From Rhodococcus tibetensis (GTDB lineage Bacteria; Actinomycetota; Actinomycetes; Mycobacteriales; Mycobacteriaceae), in contig NZ_JANFQF010000005.1 of assembly GCF_024438035.1 (NCBI RefSeq), positions 1 to 64,000 on the forward strand: a stretch of DNA of 64,000 nucleotides, written 5' to 3'. The position numbers and the translations under genes were made by a program. Shown here one piece after another: positions 2,732-37,722 of the stretch (position 1 is its first letter; every line of letters starts with the position of its first letter). The notes under the pieces are model-generated. The model had not been told where the DNA came from, did not search any database, and saw only the letters and a list, made by a program, of their open reading frames with translations.

Positions 2732-2811
2732 TCACCTCGTACGACCACCCGGGCCTAGCAGTCAGTCACTGGTCAGCGCCTACCTGGCCCGGTGTATCCA
2801 ACGTCATGGCT

Positions 2812-5786: not shown

Positions 5787-6467
5787 ATGCCGGCGTCTCA
5801 GGTGAGGCAACCACTCGAGTTGCTCGAAGCAAACTTCCTTAAACCAACTGGTTTCTGGGGCCGAGCAGTCGGACGTCTTATGTCGGTCCAGCACAGAAGT
5901 TTGACCACGTGGGCTCTCGATACCATAGGAATCGACCCGGAATCCAGTGTGCTGGACATTGGTTGCGGATCAGGAATGGCGCTCGAGATGATCTCTCGAC
6001 GAACATCGGGAAAGCTGATGGGCGTCGACTATTCCGACGTGATGGTCGAACAAACACTCCAGCGAAACCGGACGGAGGTTACTTCGCAGCGATTGACCGC
6101 CGAAATTGCAACGGCAGACCAGTTGCCCTGCGCAGACGAGTCCTTCGATCTGGCCCTGGCAATCGAAACTGTCTACTTCTGGCCGGACATCATGGCTGGC
6201 CTGAGAGAAATGCACAGAATTCTTCGTCCAGGTGGTCGAGTCGGGATTGTCGTGGAAATGAGCAAGGAGTCCATGCATAATCCCACGCTGACACAACGTG
6301 CAGTAGGACGGCGCTTCATTCAGCGATCGGAATCTAGTGGCATGACGATTCTTTCGGGACAAAGCCTGTGCACGTTACTCACCGAAGCTGGCTTCATCAG
6401 TAGCCAATGGACTGGGCGGCCAGAACGTTCCCTTGGTTGGCTGTGCGCATCGGCTACCAAGCCGTGA
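5787..6467 (+). CDS. SAM-dependent class I methyltransferase
   Basis: About 226 residues from ATG 5787. Motif I is plain (SVLDIGCGSGMALEMISRR), followed by the acidic end of strand 2 (LMGVDYSDVMV), ATADQLPCADESFDLAL and a post-motif III LREMHRILRPGGRVGIV. This is the ubiquinone/menaquinone-methylase-like fold that methylates O, N or C of small molecules. The frame is open upstream to 5634 but those residues look random; the start at MPASQVRQPLELLEANFLKP is chosen because homology-like sequence begins there, although the ribosome site is weak. First gene of the operon; its stop overlaps the P450 start. Confidence 0.85.
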   Translation: MPASQVRQPLELLEANFLKPTGFWGRAVGRLMSVQHRSLTTWALDTIGIDPESSVLDIGCGSGMALEMISRRTSGKLMGVDYSDVMVEQTLQRNRTEVTSQRLTAEIATADQLPCADESFDLALAIETVYFWPDIMAGLREMHRILRPGGRVGIVVEMSKESMHNPTLTQRAVGRRFIQRSESSGMTILSGQSLCTLLTEAGFISSQWTGRPERSLGWLCASATKP

Positions 6468-7924
6468 GCGCCCGCAATAGTCGGCCGGACGGTGACGACA
6501 AGACGGTGAAGCGGCATGAAATCGACACGGCAGCCGAACCGATGGAGGTTCCCACGAGTGACCGTGGAGTCATTCAAACGATCAGAGATTTCCGCGCAGA
6601 CATCCTGAAGGCCACCGAGTTGGGTTGGCGCCGCCACGGCGATATCGTCAAATACCGCCTCGGACCGGTCTCGGTGTATTGCATCTCCAGCAGTGAGCTC
6701 GCACATGAGGTATTCACCAATACTTCCCTCTACGGAAAGCTGGGTCCGGACAACCCCCTACGCTTGGTACTGGGCACGGGACTGTTGACTTCCTCCGATC
6801 ATGAGGTGTGGAAACGGAACCGGCGGATGATGCAACCGCTGTATACGCGGACGAGCATCGAGCAGATGTATTCCACGATGCAGGAGTGCGTCGAGCGAAT
6901 GTTGGTTCGTCTCGACCATCACGCAGAGTCGGCGGACCTCGTCGACATGCATCGAGTTCAAATGCAGGTGACCCTCGATGTCGTATCGCAATGCATGTTC
7001 GGCGTCGGAGTCGATGAGCTCGGTGATGCTGCGAAACCCGAATCCGTCGAACACGCACTCAACTTCGCGTTCGACAGGCTGCAGAATCCGTTCAGCGCCC
7101 CGTTGTCCTGGCCAACGCGGACGAACCGTCGTTTTCGCACAATCATGAGTGAATTTGACGAATACGTGTACAAACTGATCGCGGACCGTCGCAATACGGA
7201 GCCTGGTTATGGAGACCTCCTGGACATGCTCCTAGGAGCTCGCGATGAGGAAACCGGAGAGGGACTGAATGACAGAGAGATTCGCGATGAGGTAATGACG
7301 ACCTTCGCTGCAGGGCACGAATCCACCGCGCAGACACTCACCTGGGCGATGTATCTGCTATCACAGAACCCAGAAGCTGCGGCCCGACTGCGGCAAGAAA
7401 TAGATACCGTCCTGGACGGACGGAGCCCCACGGCGCAGGACCTGCGAGATCTCAAGTACACCGCTCAGGTTGCCTCCGAGGCACTGCGCCTGTATCCCTC
7501 GGCCCCACTCATTCCCCGCCTCGTTGCACGCGATTGCACCTTGGGCGGCTACCGACTTCGTGCCGGCAGCCGCATCCTGATCAGCTTGTTCAATATTGGG
7601 AGGGATGTCAGGCATTGGGACGACCCTGACGAGTTCCGGCCTGAACGGTTCGATGCCGACAAACCAATCGGAGTAGAGCACAAAGCGTATGCGCCATTCG
7701 GTGCGGGGCCACACATCTGCATCGGTAAGCACTTCGCAACGGCCGAATCTCAGCTGATCCTAGCTGGCCTTTTCCAGCGGTTCGACTTTCGGCACAATCC
7801 GCACCACGACGTCCAGACACTGGCCTCCATTACTCTGCGCCCGAGATATGGCATGGAAATGATCTTCCGCCCGAGAACAGACAGGGCTTCGCGAATGCGC
7901 ACCGAGTCGAGGAGCCACTCGTGA
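6464..7924 (+). CDS. Cytochrome P450
   Basis: A 486-residue P450 if it starts at the GTG that overlaps the methyltransferase stop (GTGA); an ATG at 6542 is an alternative. Diagnostic motifs: I-helix AAGHESTAQT, K-helix EALRLYPSAP (ExxR), PERF region FRPERFDADKP, and the heme loop FGAGPHICIGKHFA with the thiolate Cys at residue 419. The I-helix and heme loop resemble CYP102/CYP4-like fatty-acid or lipid hydroxylases more than narrow macrolide P450s, so a lipophilic substrate is plausible. No ferredoxin or reductase gene is present in the operon. It overlaps the mmpL start by 4 bases. Confidence 0.92.
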   Translation: MSARNSRPDGDDKTVKRHEIDTAAEPMEVPTSDRGVIQTIRDFRADILKATELGWRRHGDIVKYRLGPVSVYCISSSELAHEVFTNTSLYGKLGPDNPLRLVLGTGLLTSSDHEVWKRNRRMMQPLYTRTSIEQMYSTMQECVERMLVRLDHHAESADLVDMHRVQMQVTLDVVSQCMFGVGVDELGDAAKPESVEHALNFAFDRLQNPFSAPLSWPTRTNRRFRTIMSEFDEYVYKLIADRRNTEPGYGDLLDMLLGARDEETGEGLNDREIRDEVMTTFAAGHESTAQTLTWAMYLLSQNPEAAARLRQEIDTVLDGRSPTAQDLRDLKYTAQVASEALRLYPSAPLIPRLVARDCTLGGYRLRAGSRILISLFNIGRDVRHWDDPDEFRPERFDADKPIGVEHKAYAPFGAGPHICIGKHFATAESQLILAGLFQRFDFRHNPHHDVQTLASITLRPRYGMEMIFRPRTDRASRMRTESRSHS

Positions 7925-10209: not shown

Positions 10210-10323
10210 GCGTATTTCCGTCCGACTTCCGTCAGCTGCAGGGTCGTTGCGGCGACGCGGCCAGCGGGGATCTTTTTCGGCCGCATGACAATCATCGAAC
10301 GCACTTACATGGGGGTTCATTGC

Positions 10324-11550
10324 ATGGGTACTACGTCGCTTACAAGGCTAATCGGCCACGATCCTCGGATCGAGATGTTCAAGGCGCTGCGCGACAGCGG
10401 TCACCTGCCATTTTTTCGCGAAATGCAATCGGCCACGGCACCGACAATGTCGGTCGAAGGACGCCAGATGACCATGCTCGGTTCCAATAACTACCTGGGT
10501 CTCTCGACGCACCCGGCGGTAGTGGAAGGTGCCGCCCGCGCCCTTCGTGAGTTCGGCACCGCTACCACTGGTAGCCGCCTGATGAACGGCACAATCGACT
10601 TGCACCTTCGTATCGAAGCCGAGTTGGCGCAATGGCACGGCACCGAAGACGCGATCGTCTTCACAACCGGGTACCAGACCAATCTCGGAACGATCGGCGC
10701 GCTGGTGCCACCCGGTGGGCCAGTGGTCGTCGACCAGTATGCCCACGCCTCAATACAGGACGGGTGCCGCCTAGCTGGTGCTGACTTGCGACGCTTTCGC
10801 CATAACGACATGGGTTCACTGAGGGCGGCATTGACTGAACTCGGTTCCGTTGTGCCGGTACTGGTCATCATCGATGGGCTCTACTCCATGGAAGGCGACT
10901 TCGCCCCTCTAACAGAAGTGCAAGAGCTCTGTGACGACTTCGGCGCAGTGCTCATGGTGGACGAGGCACACAGCGTCGGGCTCTTCGGGGATCGAGGCAC
11001 TGGCGTAAGCGAAATGGCCGGACTAGCCGACCGTGTGCCCGTTCGGATGGGTTCACTGTCGAAGGGTCTGGCGTCGACCGGTGGCTTCGTGGCTGGTACT
11101 CGCGACCTGATCGACACTATCCGTGGCAGAGCGCGAGCCTTCCAATTCAGCACGGCCGGCGTCCCGTCGACTTTGGGTGCAGCTCTGGCAGCGATCCAAC
11201 TCGCGAGGAGCGACGAAGGTCGCGCTCTCGCCGCGCAGTCTGCCGAAAACGCGCGATTCCTGCGATCGGAGCTACAGGCGCGTGGTGTCGACGTCGGAAG
11301 CGACCCCTCGGTAGCAGGCCTGTCTCCATCGCCGATTGTTCCTGTCTACGTCGGTGACGATCTTCGTGTGATCGAAGCTTGGCGCACACTGTTTGACGAC
11401 GGAATTTATTGCAACGCTGCGGTTCACCCCGCGGTCCCGGCAGGGAATGCGCTGCTGCGTGTGTGCGTCATGGCGACACACACGGCGGAACAACTCGAAT
11501 TCGCTGCGGATGCCATCGCCCAGAGTCTCGATGTCACCGCAGCCGCGTAG
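10324..11550 (+). CDS. Alpha-oxoamine synthase (serine palmitoyltransferase / AONS-like)
   Basis: A fold-type I PLP enzyme of 408 residues from ATG 10324. That start is chosen over ATGs at 10285 and 10309 because GGGGG sits 8 bases upstream. Family marks: SNNYLGLSTHPAVVEGA, TTGSRLMNGTIDLHLRIEAE, VFTTGYQTNLGTIGAL, VDEAHSVGLFGDRGTG, and the PLP lysine in GSLSKGLAS (Lys247). Such enzymes decarboxylatively condense an amino acid with an acyl-CoA or acyl-ACP to an alpha-amino ketone. The GSRLMNGT-DLH block resembles serine palmitoyltransferase and secondary-metabolism members more than BioF, and no other biotin gene is near. Probably the first carbon-skeleton step of the pathway; the substrate is unknown. 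Confidence 0.88.
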   Translation: MGTTSLTRLIGHDPRIEMFKALRDSGHLPFFREMQSATAPTMSVEGRQMTMLGSNNYLGLSTHPAVVEGAARALREFGTATTGSRLMNGTIDLHLRIEAELAQWHGTEDAIVFTTGYQTNLGTIGALVPPGGPVVVDQYAHASIQDGCRLAGADLRRFRHNDMGSLRAALTELGSVVPVLVIIDGLYSMEGDFAPLTEVQELCDDFGAVLMVDEAHSVGLFGDRGTGVSEMAGLADRVPVRMGSLSKGLASTGGFVAGTRDLIDTIRGRARAFQFSTAGVPSTLGAALAAIQLARSDEGRALAAQSAENARFLRSELQARGVDVGSDPSVAGLSPSPIVPVYVGDDLRVIEAWRTLFDDGIYCNAAVHPAVPAGNALLRVCVMATHTAEQLEFAADAIAQSLDVTAAA

Positions 11551-11587
11551 TTCGGCACTGCCACCCTCTTCAGCCGGGAGTTCACTT

Positions 11588-12790
11588 ATGAGTGCAGCCA
11601 CCTATCAACGAGCCGAAGCGGCTCATACTATCTGGCCGACCCGGGAGCCCCTGCTCGAGAACATGTTTCCCGAGCTGTTCGAGTACCTCTCGGGCACCCC
11701 GCTGCTGACACTCGAAACCCGAGGGTCAGGTGTAGTCGAGCGCTTCAAGACATCTGGAGCGATCGGACTGATCGTTCCCCAAGAACTCGGCGGCGTGGGT
11801 GCCTCCGCACGAACGGCAATTGCCGTACAGCGTGAGATCGGCGGCCGTTCTCCATCGCTGGCTGCAGCGACGACGATGCACCATTTGTCCCTTGCCACAC
11901 TTCTCGAGTATGCACATGCAGGGACCGAAGACGATCTAGATCTCGCTCGGGCCATCGTTGGAGCCAACACCCTGATCGCCTCGGGATTCGCCGAGGGTAA
12001 GTCGGGATCGAGTGTGTTCGAACCGAGTATGAAGGCTGAACAAGTGACCGGCGGTTATCTCGTTTCGGGCTCGAAGAAGCCGTGCAGCATGTCGTCCTCG
12101 ATGGACCTGCTGACTGCAACAGTTGTTGTGCCTTCGGAGAACGGACCTTTACGGGGCATCGCACTCATCTCGGCCGAGACTCCCGGACTATCAGTACGTC
12201 CCTTCTGGAAAACTCATGTTCTCGGTGGCTCGGAAAGCGACGAGGTGGTTCTAGACGAAGTATTCGTGCCCGAGCAACTCGTCATCGCCGACACCGACGG
12301 ACAGTCAATGCACAGACACGAGATGACTGGTTTCCTCTGGTTCGGGATGCTGATCACTGCCTCGTACCTGGGCGCCGCCAGCCGACTGGTCGAGTTGCTG
12401 ATGGCGAAGCCGAACGCGAACAGCGATCTGATCGTGAGCGCCGCAGGGGAACTGGAGATGTCGTACTCCGCAGTCGAAAGTATCGCGCGTCGCTTCGACG
12501 GCGGAGAACGCGGCGCCGACTTGTCGGCGCAACTTCTGCTAGTACGGTATGCCACTCGCGACTCACTGACGCGATCTGCTGCGTCGAGCGTTGCAGGCCT
12601 CGGTGGCTCCGCCTTCATTGATAAACCTGAAGTGGCATATCTAGAGTCTGTCGTACACGCTTACGGGTTCCATCCCCCATTCCGGTCTCAGATGGCCGCC
12701 GGCATAGTCGAGTACCTTGAGGGGGGTCTGTTTATGCTGACTCCCGACTCGTCTGAGCGTTCGTCCGCGGCGTCAGGAGGGTCAAGATGA
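11588..12790 (+). CDS. Acyl-CoA dehydrogenase-like flavoprotein
   Basis: A 400-residue protein with the three-domain acyl-CoA dehydrogenase fold: helical N-terminus with IGLIVPQELGGVGAS, a middle beta domain (SGFAEGKSGSSVFEP, GSKKPCSMSSSMDLL), and a C-terminal helix bundle. ATG 11588 follows GGGAG by 6 bases; the open frame upstream overlaps the previous gene and is not used. The usual C-terminal YGGxGY...E active-site region is replaced by HAYGFHPPFRSQMAAGIVEY, so ordinary alpha,beta-dehydrogenation is doubtful. Relatives of this kind act as flavin monooxygenases (for example amine N-hydroxylases such as VlmH) or as carrier-bound desaturases. Which applies here is unknown; no partner flavin reductase is seen. 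Ends with an ATGA overlap. Confidence 0.78.
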   Translation: MSAATYQRAEAAHTIWPTREPLLENMFPELFEYLSGTPLLTLETRGSGVVERFKTSGAIGLIVPQELGGVGASARTAIAVQREIGGRSPSLAAATTMHHLSLATLLEYAHAGTEDDLDLARAIVGANTLIASGFAEGKSGSSVFEPSMKAEQVTGGYLVSGSKKPCSMSSSMDLLTATVVVPSENGPLRGIALISAETPGLSVRPFWKTHVLGGSESDEVVLDEVFVPEQLVIADTDGQSMHRHEMTGFLWFGMLITASYLGAASRLVELLMAKPNANSDLIVSAAGELEMSYSAVESIARRFDGGERGADLSAQLLLVRYATRDSLTRSAASSVAGLGGSAFIDKPEVAYLESVVHAYGFHPPFRSQMAAGIVEYLEGGLFMLTPDSSERSSAASGGSR

Positions 12791-13836
12791 CAGGCAATTC
12801 CCGCCCCCGCGTACTCGTTATCGGTTCAGGAGTGCTCGGTACCTTCGTCGCTCGCACGGTCAGGGCGTGGGCGGATGTCGTCGTCGCAAGTCGTTCCAGA
12901 CCGAAGGACCCCGGACCTCATCTACCGATCGAACTGGCCGATCCTGAGTCAGTGGCAAGTGTATTGGGCGGGTTCGATCTGATCATCAACTGCGTCCACA
13001 CCCCGGAACTGTTGGCGGAGAAACGCGTTCTGGAAACCGGTGGCACACTTTTGAACCTGTCCAACCTCAGTTTGTCCGAAAGTGCATCGTTACGGTCCTA
13101 CGCGAAAGGTGCCCGCGGAACGGTCATCATCAATGCGGGACTTTCACCCGGCGTCAATAGTTTGCTCTGCGCGGACCTCCTGACGAGGTACCCGAATGCA
13201 GATGAGATCAGACTAGTGATGAGTTTCTCGTGCTCGGAGTCCGGAGGGCCGCAGGCGGTGGGCGGGCTTGCATACCGTCTCTTGGCCCGCGGGTCACGCC
13301 ACCGAACCGGCATGTTCACTCTCGCCGCTCCTTACGCCGAGAGGCAGTGCATCGAGGTGGGCAGTGAGGCTGACGGTTTGTTCGGTGATGCCGCGGAAGG
13401 TCGGATCGGAAGGGTCTACTTTTTCTTCGTGGAGTCGTGGTTCCAACGAAGCCTCCTCGCCCTCAATTCGGTGGCACTGTTGCGGTTCGTACCGCAATGG
13501 CTGTTCGTCCTGGGGCTGAAGGTCCCCGACGAGTTGACCAGTGAGAGAAAGGGCGACTTGGTCGAAGTCGCGCTGAAAGGTCAGGCGATCGCCGGATACC
13601 GACTGACGGGTTCTGGAGATTATCGGCTCACGGTTGCCGCCGCCGATGTCTTCGGTAGGGCACTTCTCGACCGCACGCCAGTACACCCAGGTGTGCACTC
13701 GCTCGAGAAAATGGTCACATTCACCGAATTACGCACGGAACTCGAACGAGTTGGCTTCAAGTTCGAGTTCGTGCCCGCCAAAAGCTCACCGGTTGAACCG
13801 GTCACCCGCAGCTCTGCCGCTGGCGCGGCATCGTGA
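12787..13836 (+). CDS. Saccharopine dehydrogenase-like NAD(P)-binding protein
   Basis: 349 residues. The N-terminal Rossmann motif is VLVIGSGVLGTFVARTV, followed by DLIINCVHTPELLAEK and NLSNLSLSESASL, the pattern of the saccharopine dehydrogenase NADP-binding domain. The C-terminal half holds VINAGLSPGVNSLLCADLL-type sequence and a conserved-looking GYRLTGSGDYRLTV block. Such proteins reduce or oxidise imines, or reductively join an amine with a carbonyl. Within this operon a role in C-N bond reduction is plausible but inferred. Translationally coupled at both ends (ATGA upstream, GTGA downstream). Confidence 0.75.
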   Translation: MTGNSRPRVLVIGSGVLGTFVARTVRAWADVVVASRSRPKDPGPHLPIELADPESVASVLGGFDLIINCVHTPELLAEKRVLETGGTLLNLSNLSLSESASLRSYAKGARGTVIINAGLSPGVNSLLCADLLTRYPNADEIRLVMSFSCSESGGPQAVGGLAYRLLARGSRHRTGMFTLAAPYAERQCIEVGSEADGLFGDAAEGRIGRVYFFFVESWFQRSLLALNSVALLRFVPQWLFVLGLKVPDELTSERKGDLVEVALKGQAIAGYRLTGSGDYRLTVAAADVFGRALLDRTPVHPGVHSLEKMVTFTELRTELERVGFKFEFVPAKSSPVEPVTRSSAAGAAS

Positions 13837-16139
13837 TCGATCTCGTCAATGCCGCCGATCACAGCATCGACGTGGTTGGGAACAAAGCCAGAATGCTCTC
13901 GCGGGCGGCGCGACAGGGATTCAACGTGCCAAACGGGATCGTTATACCGCCGGGGACGCCGCCGCAGGGAATCGCGATCGCGCAATTTCTTGGCGCCACT
14001 CTTTTCGCGGTCCGTTCATCCGCACCGGACGAGGATGGCTCCGCGTCGTCGATGGCGGGCCAGTTCAGCACAGTACTCGACGTCGAAGGACATGATCTCG
14101 ATGATGTCGTCGAATCTGTCCGGCGCGGTAGAGAGGATTCGGCCGACGGCGGGGTGATTCCCGTCATCGTCCAACGCATGGTCGATCCGCTGTTCGCCGG
14201 TGTGGGCTTCTCTATCGATCCAGTCAGCGGCGACGGAGACGTCACCACCATCGAAGTGGTCGCCGGGCTGGGGGACAGGGTGACGGACGGATCAGCGTCG
14301 CCCACGACTGTGCAACGCAGGCTCGGCGTCGACGGGGCGTACGTCACCGAATTTGCCGGTGATGCGCCGCCCCTCGCGGTTACGAAGATGTGCGATCTAG
14401 TCGACGACCTAGCCGAGTGGCTCGGTGTTCCCGTCGATGTCGAGTTCGCCAGCGACACGTCGACGATGTGGCTCCTCCAGGTGCGGCCGGTGACCGCTGT
14501 CGGGTTCGGCGGTATCGACGGTGTATGGACATCAGCCAATCTTCGGGACTCTCTGACCGACACGGTATCGACGCTGACTGCGACTACTACACTGGAATTG
14601 ACCTTTCCTGCAGCGGTCAACGCAGCGGTTCGGTCGATCATGAAGAGTGATCGTTCCGATATGCCGCTCGTCACTGCACGGCCAATGTATGCAAAGCCCT
14701 ACTGGCGCGTCGACCGACTGCGCGCACAGTTGCAGAGACTGCCGGGCCACGATGCCCGTGTCTTCGACACCTCAGTCGGGATCGAGCACGACCCACACGC
14801 CGTCGAGTCGAGGCAAGGATGGCTCCGTGCGTTTCGATACCCATCTATCGTGGTCCGCGGCATGTTATACGCAAGGCGGATTCAGCGGGATGCCGAGTCA
14901 TGTGTCGCTCGCAATGAGAACGTTGACTGGGCCGTGGACCGTCACAGGTACCAGGGTTCGCCGCGGACTCTGAGCCAGCGATTGCGTGAAGCGCTGGCCA
15001 CACACCATCAAGTGTATCTATTGTCGATGCAGGTTTCGCTTATCGCAGAGCAAGCCCTCGATGCATTGCGGGTCTGTGCAGAGTCCGCTTCCACCGACGG
15101 TGCCCCTACCATCCATCCGTCCGAAATGATGTCGGATCTCGGCGTGCTCGCTACCAATCGCGGAGCCACGGCCCTAGCGGATCTCGCGAACCGTCACCGC
15201 GCCTCGGCCCGAGTTATCTTGGCTGCAAGCTCGGTGGATGACTTGCCCGCACCGGTGCGCGCAGACCTGGAACAGATCGCCGAACAGTGGGGCTACCTGT
15301 CCTTCTGTGATGACGAACTCTCGAACCCACGGTGGGACGAGGACCTGAACGTCCCTTTGGCCCTGCTGCAAGCCAATCTTCGGACTAGGAGCACCAGGAC
15401 ACTTGCGTCGACAGTCGCTTCCCGCCACACCAGTGCTCGGCAAGCATTGCTGAGCGGACCCCTGTACCGCCGACCGCTGCTCGCCCTGATCCTTAGACAC
15501 GCACGGTCCTGGGCTGTTCTTCGAGAGGCCATGCGGGCATGCGCAGCACGGCACAACTACCTGGTTCGCAAAGTATGTCTCGAACTGGGCGACCAGCTTG
15601 TCGACTCGCACCGTCTGACCAAACAGGAAGACGTCTTTTGGCTCACCCGCGACGAGGTACTCCTTGCGTCCACCCTCTCAGACACCGGGGACCTAAGCTT
15701 GTACGCGGACAACCGGCGACGACGCGCGTCGACCTTCCGCAACTGGGTGGTCCCGGACACAATCCGGAATGCCGTGGGACAGTCCGAGCAGGGGCCTCAA
15801 TCCGCCGCAGTCCATTCGAGAACTGAACTGGCTGGAATCGGTTGCTCGTACGGTGTCGCCGAAGGCCCGGCGCGGGTGGTCGACACGCAATCGGATCTTG
15901 CCGCTGTGACGGAGAACGACATCCTCGTGGTGCGCACCATCAACCCCGGCTGGGCCGGCGTTTTCGGTTGCGCAAGTGGGTTGGTATCGGAAAGCGGTGG
16001 GATGCTGTCGCACGGTTCAATCCTCGCCCGGGAACAAGGATTGCCGGCGGTGGTAGGTGTTCGAGGCGCAACCACACGCATAACTACCGGTGACATCATT
16101 CGGATCGATGGAACTACAGGGGAAGTAGTCCGACGATGA
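13833..16139 (+). CDS. PEP synthase / rifampicin phosphotransferase-like enzyme
   Basis: 768 residues from GTG 13833. Residues 1 to about 215 form the ATP-grasp domain of the PEP-synthase family (GNKARMLSRAARQGFNVP, FAVRSSAPDEDGSASSMAGQ, VEFASDTSTMWLLQVRPVTA). About 220-660 is a long, mostly helical middle domain without the PEP/pyruvate TIM barrel. The C-terminal swivelling domain has the phosphorylated histidine in GGMLSHGSILAREQGLP (His727). The order ATP-middle-His matches rifampicin phosphotransferase and the prodiginine condensing enzyme PigC/RedH, not PEP synthase itself. The protein therefore probably phosphorylates or ATP-activates a small molecule bound by the middle domain. Coupled by overlaps to both neighbours. 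Confidence 0.85.
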   Translation: MIDLVNAADHSIDVVGNKARMLSRAARQGFNVPNGIVIPPGTPPQGIAIAQFLGATLFAVRSSAPDEDGSASSMAGQFSTVLDVEGHDLDDVVESVRRGREDSADGGVIPVIVQRMVDPLFAGVGFSIDPVSGDGDVTTIEVVAGLGDRVTDGSASPTTVQRRLGVDGAYVTEFAGDAPPLAVTKMCDLVDDLAEWLGVPVDVEFASDTSTMWLLQVRPVTAVGFGGIDGVWTSANLRDSLTDTVSTLTATTTLELTFPAAVNAAVRSIMKSDRSDMPLVTARPMYAKPYWRVDRLRAQLQRLPGHDARVFDTSVGIEHDPHAVESRQGWLRAFRYPSIVVRGMLYARRIQRDAESCVARNENVDWAVDRHRYQGSPRTLSQRLREALATHHQVYLLSMQVSLIAEQALDALRVCAESASTDGAPTIHPSEMMSDLGVLATNRGATALADLANRHRASARVILAASSVDDLPAPVRADLEQIAEQWGYLSFCDDELSNPRWDEDLNVPLALLQANLRTRSTRTLASTVASRHTSARQALLSGPLYRRPLLALILRHARSWAVLREAMRACAARHNYLVRKVCLELGDQLVDSHRLTKQEDVFWLTRDEVLLASTLSDTGDLSLYADNRRRRASTFRNWVVPDTIRNAVGQSEQGPQSAAVHSRTELAGIGCSYGVAEGPARVVDTQSDLAAVTENDILVVRTINPGWAGVFGCASGLVSESGGMLSHGSILAREQGLPAVVGVRGATTRITTGDIIRIDGTTGEVVRR

Positions 16140-17380
16140 CTGCAGACAGACAATTCGCGGGTGAACCAACCGACACCCTCGACGTCCTCGAGCGATACCT
16201 GTCCCCACCGCGGGCGGCGTTCTACCGCGCGCTGGGTGACGTCCCGACGCCATCAGGCAGTGACGGAGTTTTCATATACCACTCCGACGGCCGTGACCTG
16301 CTCGACTGCCGCAGTGCAGGAGGCGTATTCAACCTCGGTCACCGAAACCCAAGAATCCGTGAGCTCGTCACTGACAGTCTCAACTCCGTGGACATCGGTG
16401 ACTGGCTGTTACCGTCCGTCGACCGCGGCACCGCCGCACGTGCGATCGCCAAAGTACTGCCCGATCCGCTGGAGCTGGTGACCTTCGGGACCAGTGGCGG
16501 TGAGGCCGTCGATATGGCTTGCGACCTAGCGCGCCGCCACACTGGGCGCGAGAGAATCGTCGGTACCGATAATGCTTACCACGGTCAGATCGGCACCGCG
16601 GAGCTGCTCTCACAAACCGGAGCGACCTCCACTCGTACCGTTTCGCCGCAAATTGGTGTTGTGCCGTTCGGCGATATCGACGCAGCGCTGAACGCGGTAA
16701 ACGACGACGTGGCAGCCTTCGTCCTCGAACCGATCCAAGCCGCCGCAGGATTGATAATTCCCGCATACGAGTACCTGCAAGCCGTGCGGCGCCGTTGTAA
16801 CGAAACGGGGACAGTGCTCGTCGTCGACGAAGTGCAGACGGGCCTGGGACGAACCGGATCGATGTGGGCGATCGACATCTTCGGTGTTGTACCGGATGTT
16901 CTCGTCGTGGGTAAAGGCCTCTCCGGTGGTGTGTACCCGATCTCGGCCTGCATCTACACTCGAGAAATCGGACGTGCCATTTCCGACACACCATTCTTCC
17001 GCCCCAGCAGCTTCAGCGGTTCCGAACTCGGGTGCCGAGTAGCCCGCAGTGTCGTCGAAACTGTGAGCGACGCGAAATTTCTTGCGTCGGTGCGCGAGTG
17101 CGGTGGACTCCTAGCCCACGGATTGAACGAGTTGGTGAAACGCCGTCCCACCCTCTTTGCGGCCTCACGTGGCGTAGGACTGATGTGCGCATTGGAATTG
17201 GCGAACCCCGACACACGCATGAGTTTCGTACGAAATTGCTGGGCGAAGGGACTGCTCGTATCTCCCGCACCGAACCATGCGCGCGCAGTTCTCATGATGC
17301 CGCCGCTGATCATCACCACAGATCAAGTAGACCTTTTGCTGACCAGACTTTCGGAGGCAGCTGCACTAACTCAGGGTTAG
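16136..17380 (+). CDS. Class III aminotransferase (PLP)
   Basis: 414 residues, fold-type I class III (ornithine/GABA aminotransferase type). Visible: GVFNLGHRNPRIRELV, TFGTSGGEAVDMACDLARRH, the DEVQTGLGRTG signature, and the PLP lysine in VVGKGLSGGVYP (Lys260). Class III enzymes usually move amino groups to or from terminal amines, aldehydes or ketones, or act as racemases. In this operon it could make an amine from an aldehyde or ketone intermediate. It starts inside the preceding stop (ATGA) and is followed by a 60-base gap. Confidence 0.9.
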   Translation: MTADRQFAGEPTDTLDVLERYLSPPRAAFYRALGDVPTPSGSDGVFIYHSDGRDLLDCRSAGGVFNLGHRNPRIRELVTDSLNSVDIGDWLLPSVDRGTAARAIAKVLPDPLELVTFGTSGGEAVDMACDLARRHTGRERIVGTDNAYHGQIGTAELLSQTGATSTRTVSPQIGVVPFGDIDAALNAVNDDVAAFVLEPIQAAAGLIIPAYEYLQAVRRRCNETGTVLVVDEVQTGLGRTGSMWAIDIFGVVPDVLVVGKGLSGGVYPISACIYTREIGRAISDTPFFRPSSFSGSELGCRVARSVVETVSDAKFLASVRECGGLLAHGLNELVKRRPTLFAASRGVGLMCALELANPDTRMSFVRNCWAKGLLVSPAPNHARAVLMMPPLIITTDQVDLLLTRLSEAAALTQG

Positions 17381-17440
17381 CGCAGCGGACCAGCAGACTA
17401 TCGACGAAACTACAGACAAGCGGACGGGCAGGCTCACAAC

Positions 17441-17920
17441 GTGGACGCCAAAAACTACTTCGATACACGAACGACGTACAACCTAGTGCGAATCGAATAC
17501 ACGGCTGCATTCGCGGTGTGTGTCGCGCTCGCCGTCGCCCACATCGATCGGATCGACTGGATCCCGGCACTACTGCTGTTCTTCTACATCGACGTCATCG
17601 GATACGTGCCAGGCGCCATCTACTGTCGGCTTCGACGAACAAACCATCCACCCCGCAGTTTCTACGTCTTGTACAACGTCATGCACAGTGCCATTACGCA
17701 GGGAGCCGTGGTCGGTGCGTGGATTGCAGCCTTCGGCGCCCAATGGGCGCTTCTGGCAATTCCAATACACGTATTCGCCGACCGCGGACTATTCGGCAAT
17801 CAAATGAAGGTGTTCTCCACCCCCTTCGAACCGACACGGATCCAACCGTTCACAGACTTGCTCATCGCGATGAAGGAGCAGCAACAGAAGGAAGCACGAC
17901 TTACACAGGCCTGGCGTTGA
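17441..17920 (+). CDS. Small integral membrane protein, unknown function
   Basis: 159 residues from GTG 17441. Hydrophobic segments at about 18-36, 38-60 and 84-110 suggest three to four membrane helices. Polar residues are scattered inside the bundle: YIDVIGYVPGAIYCRL, YNVMHSAITQ and IHVFADRGLFGN contain His, Asp, Asn and Tyr that could bind a metal or substrate, so it need not be a plain transporter. I do not recognise the family. Small membrane proteins accompany the VlmA-type transferase in aliphatic azoxy clusters, and this one may be of that kind (inference from memory). It ends two bases before the next ATG. Confidence 0.7.
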   Translation: MDAKNYFDTRTTYNLVRIEYTAAFAVCVALAVAHIDRIDWIPALLLFFYIDVIGYVPGAIYCRLRRTNHPPRSFYVLYNVMHSAITQGAVVGAWIAAFGAQWALLAIPIHVFADRGLFGNQMKVFSTPFEPTRIQPFTDLLIAMKEQQQKEARLTQAWR

Positions 17921-17922
17921 CC

Positions 17923-19284
17923 ATGGATTCCGCAATACTCGAGAGCCCGCCTTGGGTCGGTTACGAAGAAGCTTCCTCGAACACCGAAGAGTTGAATTGC
18001 TCACCCACCTTCGACCGCGTAGTGATCGGCGCGGGACTTGTGGGCATGGCCACGGCCGTAGAGTTGCTGCGGCGAGAACCTCAGGCGTCAATAGCAATAC
18101 TGGAAATCCACGCGCCGACTGCTGGCGCGAGCGGGCGTGGGACAGGGCTTGTGGGGCCTCGGATCGGGCCCGCCATCGACGTTCTGGAGCGGCGAGTGGG
18201 TAACGCATCGGCTCTGCGCTCGTACCGAGCGTCTGAGCAGGCTGTCGAGTTGACCACAGCGCTGTGCAGCGAATTGGGTGTTCCGTGGAACGAGTCGACC
18301 CAGTACGTGGTGGCTCGTACCGCCGCCGAGCAGCGAACATTATTCGCACAAGCATCGACCTACCGGCGCCTCGGAATCGACGTGCGCATGTGCACCCAGA
18401 AGCGACTCGCCCACGAAACGTCCGCACCACAATTCGGCGGGCTGGAGTATCAACGGGCCGCGACTGTCGATCCTGCGCTACTGACAGGGGCCCTTGCGCG
18501 CCGCGCCAAAGCGCTCGGTGCGCACGTCTACCACAGGACACCCGTTTCTGAGATCGACAACTTCCGTGGTCGGGTTCGAGTACAGACGGGGCAAGGACCG
18601 GTCTTCGCTCGATCAGTAGTCGTGGCAACGAACACCCCGACAATCTCGTCGATCGCTCAACGTGTAGGTGCGGTCGTCGGACTCGAAGTCTTCGGTGCGC
18701 TGACAGTACAGTCCGAAGATACCGAATTGATTGGAGCAACAGGGCGTGCGTTCGTCGGTGCCGATTCGCTCGCCCCATTCCACCTGACGCGAGCGGATGG
18801 CTCGACAATAATTGGCGGTGGGGGTGCGCGATCGAGACCCGCTAAAGGATCGAGAAAAGCATTCGACCTCGCGACGTGGGACTGGCTAGCGCAATGGTGG
18901 GAAACTGCTCAGGACGGGCAGGGACAGAAGGCATTCAGCCATCGTTGGTCCGGTCCGATCGCAGTGACGGGTGACGGACTTCCCGTCGTGGGCCCGGTGG
19001 CCGGCCTGCCTGATGTGTGGTTCATGGGCGGATGTGGAGGGCACGGGCTTGCCATGGCGGCCTTCAACGCCGCCGTGATAGCGAGCTCGGTCACAAGTTC
19101 CGATAGCCATTCCATCGACCTACCGTGGTTACGATCGCGTGCTCCAGGGCCAGCGGCCTCGAGACCAGTCTCCGTGGCTGTCGGTGCGTTGGTGCACGCC
19201 AAGACGATGGCGATGAGACGGTCACAGGCCAACGCGGTGAAGAAGACAGGCGAACGACCCATCCGAACGAGGAGAAGCCAGTGA
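17923..19284 (+). CDS. DAO-type FAD-dependent oxidoreductase
   Basis: 453 residues from ATG 17923, two bases after the previous stop. The dinucleotide-binding motif is RVVIGAGLVGMATAVELLRR with an acidic strand-2 end (AILEIHAP), then GASGRGTGLVGPRIG, typical of D-amino-acid oxidase/glycine oxidase/sarcosine oxidase relatives. The second FAD contact near the C-terminus is WFMGGCGGHGLAMAAFNA. These enzymes oxidise C-N bonds of amines or amino acids with oxygen or another acceptor. Here it could oxidise an amine or hydrazine intermediate. The basic tail (AKTMAMRRSQANAVKK) is unusual. The stop overlaps the next start (GTGA). The frame is open far upstream through the aminotransferase, but that part is a shadow. 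Confidence 0.85.
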   Translation: MDSAILESPPWVGYEEASSNTEELNCSPTFDRVVIGAGLVGMATAVELLRREPQASIAILEIHAPTAGASGRGTGLVGPRIGPAIDVLERRVGNASALRSYRASEQAVELTTALCSELGVPWNESTQYVVARTAAEQRTLFAQASTYRRLGIDVRMCTQKRLAHETSAPQFGGLEYQRAATVDPALLTGALARRAKALGAHVYHRTPVSEIDNFRGRVRVQTGQGPVFARSVVVATNTPTISSIAQRVGAVVGLEVFGALTVQSEDTELIGATGRAFVGADSLAPFHLTRADGSTIIGGGGARSRPAKGSRKAFDLATWDWLAQWWETAQDGQGQKAFSHRWSGPIAVTGDGLPVVGPVAGLPDVWFMGGCGGHGLAMAAFNAAVIASSVTSSDSHSIDLPWLRSRAPGPAASRPVSVAVGALVHAKTMAMRRSQANAVKKTGERPIRTRRSQ

Positions 19285-20297
19285 GAATCGAAAGTAGTCT
19301 GCGTAATCCCGATGAGCTCAACCACGCGCAGTATGACGGTGGGATGCGTGGTGGACACTACGAAAGCTTCTACCAACGCGCCAACCATCCCACCCGCCCA
19401 CTGGCATTCTGGATTCGATACACAGTGTTCGTTCCGAAGGGGCGACCAGAATCCGCAATCGGTGAATTGTGGTTCGTGTTCTTCGACGGTGAGTCCGGTG
19501 AGCACACTGTGATGAAGGAAGAACTGCCGATCGCTCAATGCGCATTCGCGACAACTTCCTTCGACGTTCGGATCGGTGATGCAGTGTTGTCACCCGGTCG
19601 ACTGATCGGCGGCGGGTCTTCTGAGGGAATACGCTGCGAGTGGGACCTTTCGTACTCCTCATCCCACGACCCCGTCTTCCTGCAATCGCGCCGGGCCTAT
19701 TCCCTTCCGTTCCCGAAGGCGAAAAGTCTTATTGCACATCCACTTGCGGTCTTCAGTGGTGTGTTGAACGTCGGTGATCGCGTGGTTCAGGTACAAGACT
19801 GGGTTGGGAGCCAGAATCACAACTGGGGTTCAGCGCACACCGACCGGTATGCGTTCGCTCAGGTCGCGGGATTCGACGAGGAGCCGGACAGCTTCCTCGA
19901 AATCGCCACGGCACAGGTGAGGGTGGGTCCTCTTCGTACCCCGTGGGCAACGATGATGGTCTTGCGAGCACGCGGTCGCGAGTACGACATGTCATCTCTG
20001 ATACGAGCGGTCCGCAACGAAGGCAAGTACTCATTCTTCGAATGGGACTTCGTCACCGAGAACGATCAGGCTCGAATCACCGGGCGTATTACTGCTCCAC
20101 GGGACGCGTTCGTCGGGCTCGTCTATTACAACCCATCCGGTGGTATCAAGCATTGCATCAACACTAAGATCGGTAGTTGTGAACTCGAGGTCAACGACAA
20201 GACGGATGGCCACAGCTTTCGTCTTTCCACCTCCCATCGAGCGTTGTTCGAGATTTTGACGGACGAACGCCGTCACGGCGTCGGAATTCGAGCGTGA
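19281..20297 (+). CDS. AttH/CrtC-like (carotenoid hydratase/tocopherol cyclase-type) beta-barrel protein
   Basis: 338 residues from GTG 19281, preceded by GGAGAAG at 19270-19276. The beta-rich sequence with repeated Trp/Phe strands (AFWIRYTVFVPKGRP, IGELWFVFFDGE, IRCEWDLSYSS) and QDWVGSQNHNWGSAHTDRYA matches the double-lipocalin fold of AttH and hydroxyneurosporene synthase (CrtC). Family members hydrate or cyclise hydrophobic chains or simply bind lipids. No carotenoid gene is nearby, so the substrate is likely the pathway intermediate. Overlaps both neighbours by 4 bases. Assignment rests on the NHNWG-type motif and fold pattern. Confidence 0.6.
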   Translation: MRIESSLRNPDELNHAQYDGGMRGGHYESFYQRANHPTRPLAFWIRYTVFVPKGRPESAIGELWFVFFDGESGEHTVMKEELPIAQCAFATTSFDVRIGDAVLSPGRLIGGGSSEGIRCEWDLSYSSSHDPVFLQSRRAYSLPFPKAKSLIAHPLAVFSGVLNVGDRVVQVQDWVGSQNHNWGSAHTDRYAFAQVAGFDEEPDSFLEIATAQVRVGPLRTPWATMMVLRARGREYDMSSLIRAVRNEGKYSFFEWDFVTENDQARITGRITAPRDAFVGLVYYNPSGGIKHCINTKIGSCELEVNDKTDGHSFRLSTSHRALFEILTDERRHGVGIRA

Positions 20298-21328
20298 TAT
20301 CGGAGCAGATGGCGGCCGACGCCGACCCGCCCACGGAGGCGCACGAGTACGTGGTTCGATCGGCTCACCGTCTCGTGTCGGCGTATTCGGAGAATCCAAG
20401 TGCCTTCAATGGATTATCCGATCGCAATGACTACTACTTCGGTCGGCACTGCGACGGAGTCGTCGCGTACCGGAATCGCGGTCACTCGGCGGTCATCTTC
20501 GGTGGACCGATCTGCGCGCCGGAGGCCCGAGCGGCCCTCCTCGAGGAATTTAGTGCTCACTGTGCAAGCCACCGTCGGCGAATAGTCGCGATACAAGTCG
20601 GTGAGCAGGATGCAGATGCATATGCTCAGCTCGGCTTCCGCCTCAACCAGATCGGATCGTCATACGCCGTCGATCTGCGCACATTCGGACTGACTGGAAA
20701 GCGGTTCGTCAAGCTGCGCAACAAGATCTCACGTGCTCGACGCGCCGGTGTCGAGGTTCATGAACGGGTATACGACGATGTCGCGCGGGACATAGACCGC
20801 ATCGACACCAGATGGCTGTGGGCGATGGAACATGGGGGAGACCGTGAACTCGACTTCCTGACCGGTTCCATGGGTGACACACTTCAGGCACATCGACGAC
20901 TGTTCGTGGCAGAGATGGCGGGTCGCCCCATTGGATACGTGTCCTACTCGCCGAGCTACGGTGCTCGCACGGGATGGCTCCACGATCTGACAAGGCGAGT
21001 TCCTACCTCTCCGCCAGGAACGATGGAACTGATCAATGTCACCGCCATGAACACCTTCCACACCGAGGACGTTCGCTGGCTGCACTTTGGGTTTACCCCA
21101 TTCGTGGACTTGTCTCCAGCGAACGATGTTGAGCGAAGCAGCCCGATCATGAAATGGGCAATTGGCATGATCGCCGAGCACGGTAGCGCGCTGTATCCCG
21201 GCCGGAGTCAAGTCGAGTACAAGACCAAGTGGGGAACCGAACCTGCTAGCGCGGAATATATTGCGTTCCGTGGAATGCTATCGCCGTTGGATATGGTCAA
21301 TGCCCTACGGGTAACGGGCGTGGTATGA
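20294..21328 (+). CDS. DUF2156 (MprF C-terminal/VlmA-like) GNAT-fold transferase
   Basis: 344 residues. DUF2156 marks: GLSDRNDYYF near the N-terminus, VEVHERV after the basic block LRNKISRARRAG, IGYVSYSPSYGARTGWLHDL, TSPPGTMELINVTAM, and LHFGFTPFVDLS. This double-GNAT module is the catalytic half of MprF, which moves an amino acid from aminoacyl-tRNA to lipid. Stand-alone homologues in natural-product clusters (such as valanimycin VlmA) move an aminoacyl group to a hydroxylamine or amine. The MprF flippase domain is absent. A tRNA-dependent aminoacylation step is therefore the best inference. GTG 20294 overlaps the previous stop; ATG 20309 is an alternative start. Confidence 0.8.
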   Translation: MISEQMAADADPPTEAHEYVVRSAHRLVSAYSENPSAFNGLSDRNDYYFGRHCDGVVAYRNRGHSAVIFGGPICAPEARAALLEEFSAHCASHRRRIVAIQVGEQDADAYAQLGFRLNQIGSSYAVDLRTFGLTGKRFVKLRNKISRARRAGVEVHERVYDDVARDIDRIDTRWLWAMEHGGDRELDFLTGSMGDTLQAHRRLFVAEMAGRPIGYVSYSPSYGARTGWLHDLTRRVPTSPPGTMELINVTAMNTFHTEDVRWLHFGFTPFVDLSPANDVERSSPIMKWAIGMIAEHGSALYPGRSQVEYKTKWGTEPASAEYIAFRGMLSPLDMVNALRVTGVV

Positions 21329-21350
21329 ACTCGCCCGTCGGAGAAAACCA

Positions 21351-22295
21351 GTGAGGGTCGCTGTCGTGGGCGCTACCGGCAACTTCGGCCGAGTGATAAT
21401 TCCACGCCTGCTGGAGAACTCGACCACGACATCCGTTCTAGCCATTGCGCGCCGTCTTTACGTGAGCGATGATCCAAGGGTTTGCAGTGTCGCATTGGAC
21501 GTGCGCGACCCCGATCTACACGAACACCTGCGCGGTTACGACGCGGTAATCCACCTGGCATTCATCGTCGAAGAGACCCGCGACAAGAGGGTTTCTCACG
21601 ACATCAATGTGCGCGGAACTATGAACGTCGTCACGGCTGCCGAGAAGGCCGGGGTGCGACACTTAGTTGTGGCATCCAGCGTCAATGCATACGGGTCTGA
21701 GATCTCCGACGACTTCGTCACCGAAGACGTCTTCCCCCTCAGTGATCCCGGCCGGTTCTATTTTCACGACAAGTCCCAGATTGAGCACTACATTGAATGG
21801 TTCCGAGCAACTGCGGCTTCCCCCATGTCCATTGTGACTCTACGGTGCTCATTCGTCGTCGGTCCAAGCATTTCGAACATCGCGATCGACGCGATGTGCG
21901 CGAAATTCGCAGCCATTCCGGAGGCCGATCGGGCTTCGTACCAGTTCCTCAATGAAACCGACTTAGCAGAGGCTTTTGCCCTTGCAGTATCCGACGAGTT
22001 GTTGGAGGGGGCATACAACGTCGCGCCGCCCGACCGGACGACCATGCGGACGCTGGCGAGCCTGCACGGGCAAATCTTGGTCTCGCTCCCCATGCGGGTG
22101 GCTGTTGCTGCCGCTAATCTCCTCTACCGCCTGCGCCTGGTCAAGTATTCTGGCCATTGGGTCACAGCCGGAGATATCAGTGTCGACTCTTCCCGCTTTT
22201 CGGACGCCACCGGATGGAAATCGTCGACATCATCGGATGAAAATGCCAGCATGATGCTGCGGCTGAACGGGCGCACAGTCCGGAGAGTGGTGTAG
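21351..22295 (+). CDS. NAD-dependent epimerase/dehydratase (extended SDR)
   Basis: 314 residues from GTG 21351 with GGAGAAA about 5 bases upstream. Rossmann motif VAVVGATGNFGRVIIPRLL, then GYDAVIHLAF and the SSVNAYG block. The usual YxxxK becomes FYFHDKSQIEH, where a Tyr or His and the Lys (DK) can be recognised but spacing is not standard, so catalysis should be checked. Extended SDRs reduce ketones, epimerise sugars or dehydrate. Here reduction of the alpha-amino ketone from the oxoamine synthase is an attractive guess. Gap of 22 bases from the preceding gene. Confidence 0.82.
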   Translation: MRVAVVGATGNFGRVIIPRLLENSTTTSVLAIARRLYVSDDPRVCSVALDVRDPDLHEHLRGYDAVIHLAFIVEETRDKRVSHDINVRGTMNVVTAAEKAGVRHLVVASSVNAYGSEISDDFVTEDVFPLSDPGRFYFHDKSQIEHYIEWFRATAASPMSIVTLRCSFVVGPSISNIAIDAMCAKFAAIPEADRASYQFLNETDLAEAFALAVSDELLEGAYNVAPPDRTTMRTLASLHGQILVSLPMRVAVAAANLLYRLRLVKYSGHWVTAGDISVDSSRFSDATGWKSSTSSDENASMMLRLNGRTVRRVV

Positions 22296-22864: not shown

Positions 22865-23779
22865 ATGAGTTCGGAATTCGCCACGGTTGCACTTTCGGTT
22901 ACGTTGGCCATCATCATGTTTGGCCTTGGGCTCTCGCTGACCATTGGCGACTTTTCACGGGTCGTGCGGCATCCACGTGCGGTCGCGATTGCGCTGGGAT
23001 GCCAGTTGATCCTCCTCCCTGTCATCGCGTTCGGATTGGCTAGGCTCTTCGATCTGTCGCCGATGCTTGCGGTCGGAATGATGCTGCTGGCGGCCTCACC
23101 GGGCGGAACGACTGCGAATCTCTTCAGTCACCTGTTTCGGGGTGACGTTGCCCTGAATGTCACTCTAACAGCTGTAAATTCAGTGATTGCGGTGGTGACG
23201 TTACCCCTGGTGACCAATTTCGCGCTTGACTATTTCAATCCGCCTGGCGGCGGTTCGTTGGGTCTGCAGTTCTCGAAGGTGGTGCAAATCTTCGCGATTG
23301 TCCTGGTGCCGGTCGCCGTCGGTGTTAGTGCTCGCCGAATGTGGCCATCCTTCGCGCGGAGAATGGACCGACCGGTGCGGACCGGTTCAGCGGTTGTCCT
23401 TGCGTTGGTTATCGTCGGTACCGTAATCACCGAACGCAATAACATTTCCGGGTATTTGGCCGATATCGGTCTGATTGCGTTGATCTTTAGCGTAAGCAGC
23501 CTGGTCGTTGGCTATGCCGTACCACGGGGACTCGGGATCACCGATCGTCAGTCGATAGCCAGCTCGATGGAGATCGGCATCCACAATGGCACTTTGGCCA
23601 TCACTATTGCAATCAGCGTCCTCGACAGTGTCCAGATGGCGGTGCCCGCCGCCGTGTATGCCGTGGTCACCTTCCCTGTTGCAGCCCTGTTCGGGTGGGT
23701 GATTGCTCGCGGCCGAAGTTCAGCCCGGGACGGGGCCGGGAAATCCGTAACCGTGGGTGACCTCGACCTGGCACCGTAG
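22865..23779 (+). CDS. Bile acid:sodium symporter family (BASS) transporter
   Basis: 304 residues, about nine to ten membrane helices. ATG 22865 follows GATGGAGATTCGAG. The family motif ASPGGTTANLFSHLFRGDVA is complete, followed by LNVTLTAVNSVIAVVTLPL with the two unwound helices that bind sodium. BASS members import or export organic anions (bile acids, keto acids, small amino-acid-like acids). As last gene of the operon it could bring in a precursor or clear an intermediate. The short charged C-terminus ends the operon; no strong terminator hairpin is evident after it. Confidence 0.88.
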   Translation: MSSEFATVALSVTLAIIMFGLGLSLTIGDFSRVVRHPRAVAIALGCQLILLPVIAFGLARLFDLSPMLAVGMMLLAASPGGTTANLFSHLFRGDVALNVTLTAVNSVIAVVTLPLVTNFALDYFNPPGGGSLGLQFSKVVQIFAIVLVPVAVGVSARRMWPSFARRMDRPVRTGSAVVLALVIVGTVITERNNISGYLADIGLIALIFSVSSLVVGYAVPRGLGITDRQSIASSMEIGIHNGTLAITIAISVLDSVQMAVPAAVYAVVTFPVAALFGWVIARGRSSARDGAGKSVTVGDLDLAP

Positions 23780-28397: not shown

Positions 28398-28791
28398 GCA
28401 AGAACGGAACTGGCAAACCCGATTTCTGTGTGGCTGCGACACTTCCGGAAACCTGCAGGTGAGATCAAGAACTCACTCGGTTGCGGCGCTCCTCGCCGCG
28501 ATGTTCGACCGGAAGCTCAGGCCTGCGCGGCGAAAGGCTTGCGCAGTGGGTGCACCAGTGCGATGCGGTCACGGCCCAGGCACCGAGATTAAGACCGCGC
28601 AGGCGAGAGCCATCCTACGAGCTGGGTCGCAGTTACCATTCGCCAGATCCTACCGATGCCTCCACTAAGTGATCGGAGCCCACGAGATACTCAGGTGCAC
28701 ATCAGTCACACAGGCAACACGAGAACCAACTGCTCGTTGCCGGGTGCACGTCATGGCGTCCGGGCAGGGAAGGCGGGCGCCGAACTCTACG
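28398..28791. other. Gap after the IS element
   Basis: About 390 bases. Short Arg/Ser-rich frames exist but none has a domain or start signal. I read this as the junction between the accessory region and the conserved chromosome. Confidence 0.4.
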
Positions 28792-33614: not shown

Positions 33615-33712
33615 CGCGCGTCCTCCTTGTAGCGAGCCCTGAGGGGCTGTCGATGGGTGGAGACCCCCTGACGAAGGAGGTCTCCACCCGCGATCTAGCT
33701 GGACCGGCTTTG

Positions 33713-37714: not shown

Positions 37715-37722
37715 GAACCTAC

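Follow-up and report, generated by a model that had tools for sequence, protein, structure and literature searches.

What does a closely packed run of genes near the start of contig NZ_JANFQF010000005.1 of Rhodococcus tibetensis (assembly GCF_024438035.1) produce, and by which chemistry? The window analysed is the first 64,000 nucleotides of this contig, and its genes are named by their first position, with the coordinates collected in Table 1. The initial annotation proposed a nitrogen–nitrogen (N-N) bond pathway, hydrazine or azoxy, by analogy to valanimycin. To our knowledge, few enzymes are able to join two nitrogens, and they are wanted as catalysts. The reading favoured here, with a probability of about 0.7, is that the operon makes an N-N product by the logic of valanimycin, and that a flavoprotein of the DAO family (17923) takes the exit step in place of the diiron enzyme VlmB. 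This points to an undescribed branch of a rare chemistry. On sequence grounds, the formation of a hydrazine by the operon is very likely; the trees of the VlmA-like and VlmH-like proteins and the homology of 17441 to VlmO, with its four essential residues, bear out the valanimycin-type N-N pathway.

The membrane protein VlmO is described as a hydrazine synthase with D51, H82, H110, and D114 as essential residues in the part of the source available (PMC11705231). The small protein 17441 has all four at VlmO's own numbers, and they are invariant in nine aligned proteins and in 62/62 aligned rows. It is 34–57% identical to the proteins of other VlmO loci and 74% to that of Rhodococcus phenolicus. 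Its match to Pfam DUF4260 reaches 22.9 bits, below the cut-off of 27, and this weak likeness is common to 17441 and the VlmO homologue Ady6, for which it is noted in the accessible text of PMC9379638. The structural model is helical, with a predicted local distance difference test (pLDDT) score of 86.5 from 29 rows, and places H110 and D114 in one helix, four residues apart. No sequence match in the PDB at E ≤ 1 and no fold match at E ≤ 0.001 were obtained, which does not show a new fold. Thus 17441, which the initial annotation had suggested comparing with VlmO, appears by homology to be a VlmO relative that would form the N-N bond, and it is presumably an integral membrane protein.

VlmO relatives occur in 13 records of the plasmid search, seven of which were opened. 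The relative on plasmid p1 of Pseudoalteromonas rhizosphaerae (L010 10001-10438) is 36% identical and keeps all four essential residues; its neighbours are genes for an MMPL transporter and for lipoprotein sorting, and the stretch read gives no match to VlmA or VlmH. A lone relative of 57% identity (L035 9732-10214) lies beside a metallopeptidase-like gene, and about 40 kb read around it contain no VlmA, VlmH, VlmB, or DAO match. Locus L111 holds two overlapping N-N gene sets with VlmO in two frames, in a genome that is 76% complete, and is either decayed or the result of a sequencing fault.

The transferase 20294 consists of the LPG_synthase_C/DUF2156 domain alone (344 amino acids) and has no MprF flippase part. 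Its relatives on 13 plasmid records are 38–46% identical (39–46% on the 12 that carry VlmO), and MprF-type proteins about 25–27%. Among the matches listed, VlmA relatives cover 12 of the 13 VlmO-bearing plasmid records; the Pseudoalteromonas record is not among them. In a tree, 50 rows from VlmA loci, with 20294 among them, part from 16 other LPG_synthase_C rows, drawn from relatives and of the MprF/LysX kind, with a support of 100, although the tree is a quick one and carries a long-branch warning. The 16 derive from 25 LPG_synthase_C loci: rows from 17 could be used, and that of the window itself was then taken out. The alternative set out in the initial annotation, an MprF-like lipid synthase, was rejected on this split. 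VlmA is reported to make a seryl ester in the available portion of PMC11705231.

The flavoprotein 11588 has the acyl-CoA dehydrogenase (ACAD) N and M domains and no C-terminal ACAD domain, and the same holds for the VlmH-position protein of a valanimycin-type cluster. The initial annotation had described 11588 as ACAD-like and lacking the usual active-site region. The tree separates 59 VlmH-locus rows, 11588 with them, from 28 ACAD rows at an SH-aLRT support of 99, again in a quick tree with a long-branch warning. The ACAD rows comprise an AzsF-like protein and 27 from the same genome (27 of 30 loci, of 54 matches listed). The identity of 11588 as an ordinary ACAD or a prodigiosin-type desaturase was rejected on the tree and on matches to RedW and PigA that are weak and shared. 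VlmH and VlmR N-hydroxylate the amine, as far as PMC11705231 was available.

The grouping of these genes is not due to chance, because VlmO is accompanied by VlmA- and VlmH-like genes in 49 of 62 other VlmO loci. This comparison set consists of the R. phenolicus locus, seven plasmid loci, and 54 genome regions, with 11–31 kb read per locus; L030, from the same R. phenolicus contig, and L011, with VlmA but no VlmO in its stretch, were excluded. Annotated VlmB-like, flavin reductase, ACAD-family, and DUF2156 genes lie close together in L006-L009 and L013. Locus L007 (Streptomyces sp. NBC_00212) also contains genes for acetolactate synthase, ketol-acid reductoisomerase, seryl-tRNA synthetase (SerRS), a pyridoxal-phosphate-dependent decarboxylase, MmgE/PrpD, and diacylglycerol kinase, which we take to be the content of the vlm cluster. 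Identities between the window and L007 are 54% for VlmO, 40–41% for VlmH (41% over 364 amino acids), and 44% for VlmA.

The open reading frames named by the initial annotation within 11588..21328 are all present on the + strand and form one operon, with 4-base overlaps at 5/7 junctions. The cluster exceeds these limits. Genes 5787-22295 are co-directional on the + strand and closely packed, with 4-base overlaps at 6/12 junctions, and the P450 (6407), MMPL (7921), alpha-oxoamine synthase (10285), and short-chain dehydrogenase/reductase (SDR, 21351) genes are syntenic in R. phenolicus. R. phenolicus DSM 44812 has an orthologous operon from the P450 gene, truncated where the stretch ends, to the SBF gene, with 60–80% identity gene by gene.

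Table 1. Genes of the operon in the window, with their proposed assignments
Coordinates	Strand	Assignment	Basis
5787..6467	+	S-adenosylmethionine-dependent methyltransferase, tailoring	Pfam Methyltransf_11; 50% gene in L104/L118
6407..7924	+	Cytochrome P450, tailoring	Pfam p450, 300 bits
7921..10209	+	MMPL exporter	Pfam MMPL; 75% in R. phenolicus
10285..11550	+	Alpha-oxoamine synthase (BioF/serine palmitoyltransferase-like)	NCBIfam serine palmitoyltransferase/BioF below cut-offs; 79% R. phenolicus
11588..12790	+	VlmH-like flavin N-hydroxylase (ACAD fold)	Homology, tree
12787..13836	+	NAD(P)-binding reductase-like, distant saccharopine dehydrogenase type	Weak matches
13833..16139	+	PEP-synthase/rifampicin-phosphotransferase-like ATP-dependent phosphotransferase	Pfam PPDK_N + PEP-utilizers
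16136..17380	+	Class III aminotransferase, proposed amine supply	Pfam Aminotran_3
17441..17920	+	VlmO-like membrane hydrazine synthase (putative)	Homology, conserved residues, helical model
17923..19284	+	DAO-family FAD oxidase, proposed VlmB substitute with the hydrazine as substrate	Pfam DAO; locus distribution
19281..20297	+	AttH/CrtC-type (lipocalin-like) protein: hydratase, lyase or cyclase	Fold model
20294..21328	+	VlmA-like aminoacyl-tRNA:hydroxylamine transferase (putative)	Homology, tree
21351..22295	+	Extended SDR (epimerase/3-beta-hydroxysteroid dehydrogenase type)	Pfam Epimerase; 70% in R. phenolicus
22865..23779	+	SBF-type transporter (probable cluster member)	Pfam SBF; 70%, syntenic in R. 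phenolicus

If the N-N bond is built as in valanimycin, how does the product leave this shared core? In the available part of PMC11705231, VlmB is the enzyme that makes the azoxy group. The azoxy half of the initial proposal is left without an enzyme here, because 19281, which had been put forward for comparison with VlmB, is not VlmB and no VlmB was found in the operon or, in a single search at E ≤ 1, in the genome. Protein 19281 models as an all-beta AttH/CrtC fold and not as a ferritin-like diiron protein. The same VlmB query matches 39/62 other loci by tblastn. Among these 62, a DAO-family relative occurs in 17, neither protein in six, and both in none. Three of the six loci without VlmB and DAO (L089, L102, L044) lie near a contig end. 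Another of them, L032, contains an MPAB/Lcp-type oxygenase gene and a flavin monooxygenase-like gene (17501-18487, 2034-3353), perhaps a third exit.

The 17 locus DAO proteins and 17923 form one similarity cluster. Against these 17 the window protein reaches 97–483 bits; comparison with eight further DAO-family loci from the same genome (77 matches listed) gives no score above 56 bits. Its nearest curated models are aminophosphonate, pipecolate, and glycine oxidases. A tree with outgroups from the same genome does not recover the DAO group as one clade, but the outgroup rows were badly trimmed and one row was excluded. The two types of loci also differ in gene content. SerRS (17), ketoacyl synthase III (27), and APC (16) genes occur in the 39 VlmB loci and were seen in none of the 17 DAO loci, while MMPL genes occur in 4/17 DAO loci and 0/39 VlmB loci. 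A class III aminotransferase relative is present in 17/17 DAO loci, P450 relatives in five, a flavin reductase family member in 14, and an NAD_binding_4 (fatty acyl-CoA reductase type) family member in 12; the latter two families are similarity clusters named from one and two scanned members, and both are missing from the window operon. Flavin reductases were counted from these clusters because, in the labelled comparison of the loci, two read-through DAO queries hid several VlmR labels and one VlmO label.

The class to which the window belongs has DAO-type loci in three families, and this type also occurs on a Paraburkholderia megaplasmid; genome G525 has one VlmB-type and one DAO-type VlmO locus (L037, L042). 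Six DAO loci of family f21 (L042, L043, L103, L105, L106, L108) share WS/DGAT-type acyltransferase and LCM methyltransferase families, both named from the L042 members. That the DAO protein replaces VlmB is, on this distribution, somewhat better supported than its contrary.

The proposed route would begin with a primary amine supplied by 16136, perhaps together with 10285. By homology, 11588 would N-hydroxylate this amine, with reduced flavin probably delivered by a reductase from elsewhere in the genome, and 20294 would use a charged tRNA to aminoacylate the oxygen of the hydroxylamine. The conserved residues and homology of 17441 suggest that it turns the ester into an N-alkyl-hydrazino acid by rearrangement, with D51, H82, H110, and D114 as the ligands of a metal. 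The DAO protein may then oxidise the hydrazine at the C-N bond, probably to a hydrazone, and hydrolysis could free a substituted hydrazine, as with Spb39 in s56-p1. Cleavage of the C-N bond by the DAO protein with release of a free hydrazine is put forward tentatively. The P450, the methyltransferase, the AttH-fold protein, the rifampicin phosphotransferase (RPH)-like enzyme, and the SDR may decorate the product, and the MMPL protein may export it.

Several points weigh against this route with its DAO exit. The absence of VlmB is drawn from the operon's families and from a search of the genome that was made without a positive-control genome, so that its empty result carries little weight, and in the other loci VlmB was sought within the fetched stretch only. 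On the VlmO tree, from which L111 (a DAO locus with VlmO split over two frames) was excluded, the VlmB/DAO state changes at least three times, and a pair test of VlmB against DAO gives two independent pairs on supported branches (five on all branches), with a median p of 1 in the sign test. Because independent changes are so few, the alternation may partly be inherited. A Fisher value computed on the loci takes no account of relatedness and is not to be read as a probability. The similarity of 17923 to the AzsM/Spb39-type oxidase, represented by the pSA3239 FAD oxidoreductase, is confined to 47 amino acids at 40%, so the analogy with Spb39 is one of function and not of shown descent. The operon has none of the NAD_binding_4 reductase, aldehyde dehydrogenase, and SRPBCC genes of other clusters. 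The Pfam scan of the operon's families contains no flavin reductase (VlmR). As the initial annotation had said, this enzyme and a SerRS are missing from the operon; six VlmR-like matches lie elsewhere in the genome and could serve the N-hydroxylase. Finally, the Vlm reference proteins were named from position, family, and annotation in related clusters.

Three other explanations share part of this evidence. One keeps the hydrazine core and lets the DAO protein act earlier, on the amine or amino acid that serves as precursor, which it would make or trim; azo/azoxy oxidation would fall to the P450 or be absent, and the product would be either a simple hydrazino acid or an azoxy compound. The substrates of the nearest DAO models, amines and amino acids, and the P450 relatives in 5/17 DAO loci are in its favour. 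However, replacement fits better than precursor supply because DAO and VlmB never co-occur (0/62), and the aminotransferase of all 17 DAO loci means that the supply of the amine is already covered; this explanation is unlikely. A little less improbable, yet still doubtful, is that the DAO protein performs part of the VlmB chemistry, a two-electron oxidation of the N-N bond to an azo group without C-N cleavage. It is suggested by exclusion, since the DAO protein stands at VlmB's place in the pathway, but the precedent for an FAD oxidase in a hydrazine pathway, Spb39, is oxidation at C-N.

A lipid-modifying or acyl-carrier pathway would do without the hydrazine altogether. Here 20294 would be an aminoacyl-phospholipid synthase, 11588 a prodigiosin-type carrier-protein desaturase, 13833 a PigC-like ligase, and 16136 a PigE-like enzyme. 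The NCBIfam matches invite it: RedW is the best for 11588, and the leading ones include PigC/RedH for 13833 and PigE for 16136. However, the scores lie far below the curated cut-offs (67/650, 179/1300, and 219/850 bits). RedW and PigA are likewise weak matches of the protein at the VlmH position in L007, so that this match is a property of the superfamily. The trees that part VlmA from MprF/LysX and VlmH from the ACADs, and the missing flippase part of 20294, argue in the same direction. This pathway is largely refuted and retains a very small probability.

Compared with known systems, the operon shares VlmH, VlmA, and VlmO homologues in one cluster with the vlm, azodyrecin, KA57-A, and elaiomycin azoxy clusters. 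It differs from vlm-type clusters in lacking VlmB, VlmR, VlmL/SerRS, VlmJ, and VlmK, and has the DAO protein, the AttH-fold protein, the oxoamine synthase, the RPH-like phosphotransferase, and the MMPL protein where these clusters have others. The VlmJ kinase, VlmK dehydratase, and VlmL SerRS are not universal, as they occur in 15, 15, and 17 of the 39 VlmB loci. The s56-p1/azaserine/triacsin route (Spb38-Spb40-Spb39; AzsL-AzsN-AzsM) also proceeds from N-hydroxylation to a step that couples an amino acid and forms the N-N bond, and then to an FAD oxidase. Its N-N enzyme is of the cupin/MetRS type with N6-hydroxylysine as donor, in contrast to VlmO and VlmA in the window, and its FAD oxidases are only distantly like 17923. 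The accessible portion of PMC10445470 states that Spb39 oxidises the hydrazine C-N bond in s56-p1 biosynthesis, with hydrolysis leading to hydrazinoacetic acid, and tabulates AzsM as an FAD-binding oxidoreductase like Tri27. Plasmid pSA3239 of S. lavendulae carries an azaserine-type hydrazone cluster (L123 5235-28582) immediately next to a VlmB-type azoxy core (L008 9898-15948), and two different N-N systems are thus neighbours.

Hydrazides offer a possible product class. Both an acetylhydrazide and a cis-vaccenic acid moiety are present in hydrazidomycin D (PMC6344404, available in part), S. atratus makes hydrazidomycins (PMC11212599, likewise), and the same species is listed with elaiomycin ElaO in the accessible text of PMC11705231. 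An alkylhydrazine freed by a DAO protein and then acylated would give hydrazidomycin-like compounds. In the parts available of the literature on the valanimycin, azoxy, elaiomycin, azodyrecin, and hydrazidomycin pathways, no description was found of a DAO protein in VlmO clusters or of enzymes for hydrazide natural products.

The remaining genes of the operon appear to concern the building block and its decoration. The true start of the P450 is probably near 6470-6480; this protein is 52% identical to the P450 of L118 and 78% over 158 amino acids to that of R. phenolicus, the latter cut by the end of the stretch. The oxoamine synthase 10285 would make an amino ketone. Protein 12787 matches Sacchrp_dh_NADP at E=0.22 and PDB 3abi at E=0.0076, and is 72% identical to its R. 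phenolicus counterpart. Protein 13833 has the mobile histidine in GGMLSHG, a loop from residue 722, with 5fbs, 5hv2, and 5hv1 as the best PDB sequence matches; its identity as a PigC/RedH prodigiosin ligase was rejected, with 178.5 of 1300 and 178.3 of 1350 bits under the NCBIfam cut-offs. The aminotransferase 16136 is 66% identical in R. phenolicus and only 31–34% to those of four other N-N loci. Among the 62 loci, 10285, 12787, 13833, and 21351 have counterparts in R. phenolicus only, and they probably make a special amine or modify the product. The SBF transporter probably belongs to the cluster.

Protein 19281 has a weak Pfam match to tocopherol cyclase, and its model (pLDDT 82.9) has NE1406 AttH, CghA, Fsa2, Phm7, kievitone hydratase, and 25-phosphosteroid lyase as nearest folds. 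This fold family, which includes a hydratase, the Fsa2/Phm7/CghA pericyclases, and a lyase, is 8–13% identical to 19281. Two genomes (L191/L192, L193/L194) hold relatives of 75–78% identity in stretches that, as far as read, contain no VlmO gene, and 19281 is therefore not tied to N-N chemistry. In the DAO-type locus L104/L118 (genome G896), the methyltransferase, the P450, and a 19281-like gene are 50, 52, and 55% identical, respectively, to those of the window. Plasmid searches with 13833, 12787, and 19281 gave no match at the limits set. It is conceivable, though improbable, that 13833 and 19281 form an ATP-dependent dehydration pair in place of VlmJ/VlmK, as 25-phosphosteroid lyase shares the fold of 19281. 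The steroid-pathway kinase paired with that lyase is a 40-kDa phosphotransferase in the available part of PMC8449060. Such a pair is made less likely by the size of this kinase, roughly half that of 13833, and by L104/L118, where the stretch read includes a homologue of 19281 and none of 13833.

The cluster looks acquired, because GC is 57–62% at 4–24 kb against 63–69% from 24 kb on, and a transposase open reading frame (DDE_5, 27179-28462) lies behind the low-GC island. A divergent gene for a probable TetR-type regulator is found upstream (4362-4967, - strand), recognised by eye from a helix-turn-helix at its N terminus. Further on, carboxyl transferase, ketoacyl synthase, acyl transferase, and pyruvate dehydrogenase E1 genes (32181-40644, - strand) look like ordinary core chromosome. 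VlmO relatives occur in 1/28 genomes of the window's genus, its own only, in 8/401 of its family and 8/394 of its class (its own included in both), and in 40/249 genomes of family f21, sampled round G525.

What the operon may mean is that VlmO chemistry has two exits. VlmB would lead to the azoxy group, and the DAO protein would strip one side of the hydrazine and free a substituted hydrazine. The latter could, as a tentative proposal, be the missing route to alkylhydrazides such as the hydrazidomycins, with an acyltransferase and a methyltransferase added in loci of the L042 type, and the window would be the Rhodococcus-type version with an amino-ketone building block. If true, there is a VlmB-free branch of the pathway with a simple flavoprotein as the oxidising step, and candidate genes for hydrazide natural products are at hand. 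It would also give a testable rule, by which VlmB predicts an azoxy compound and DAO a hydrazone or hydrazine.

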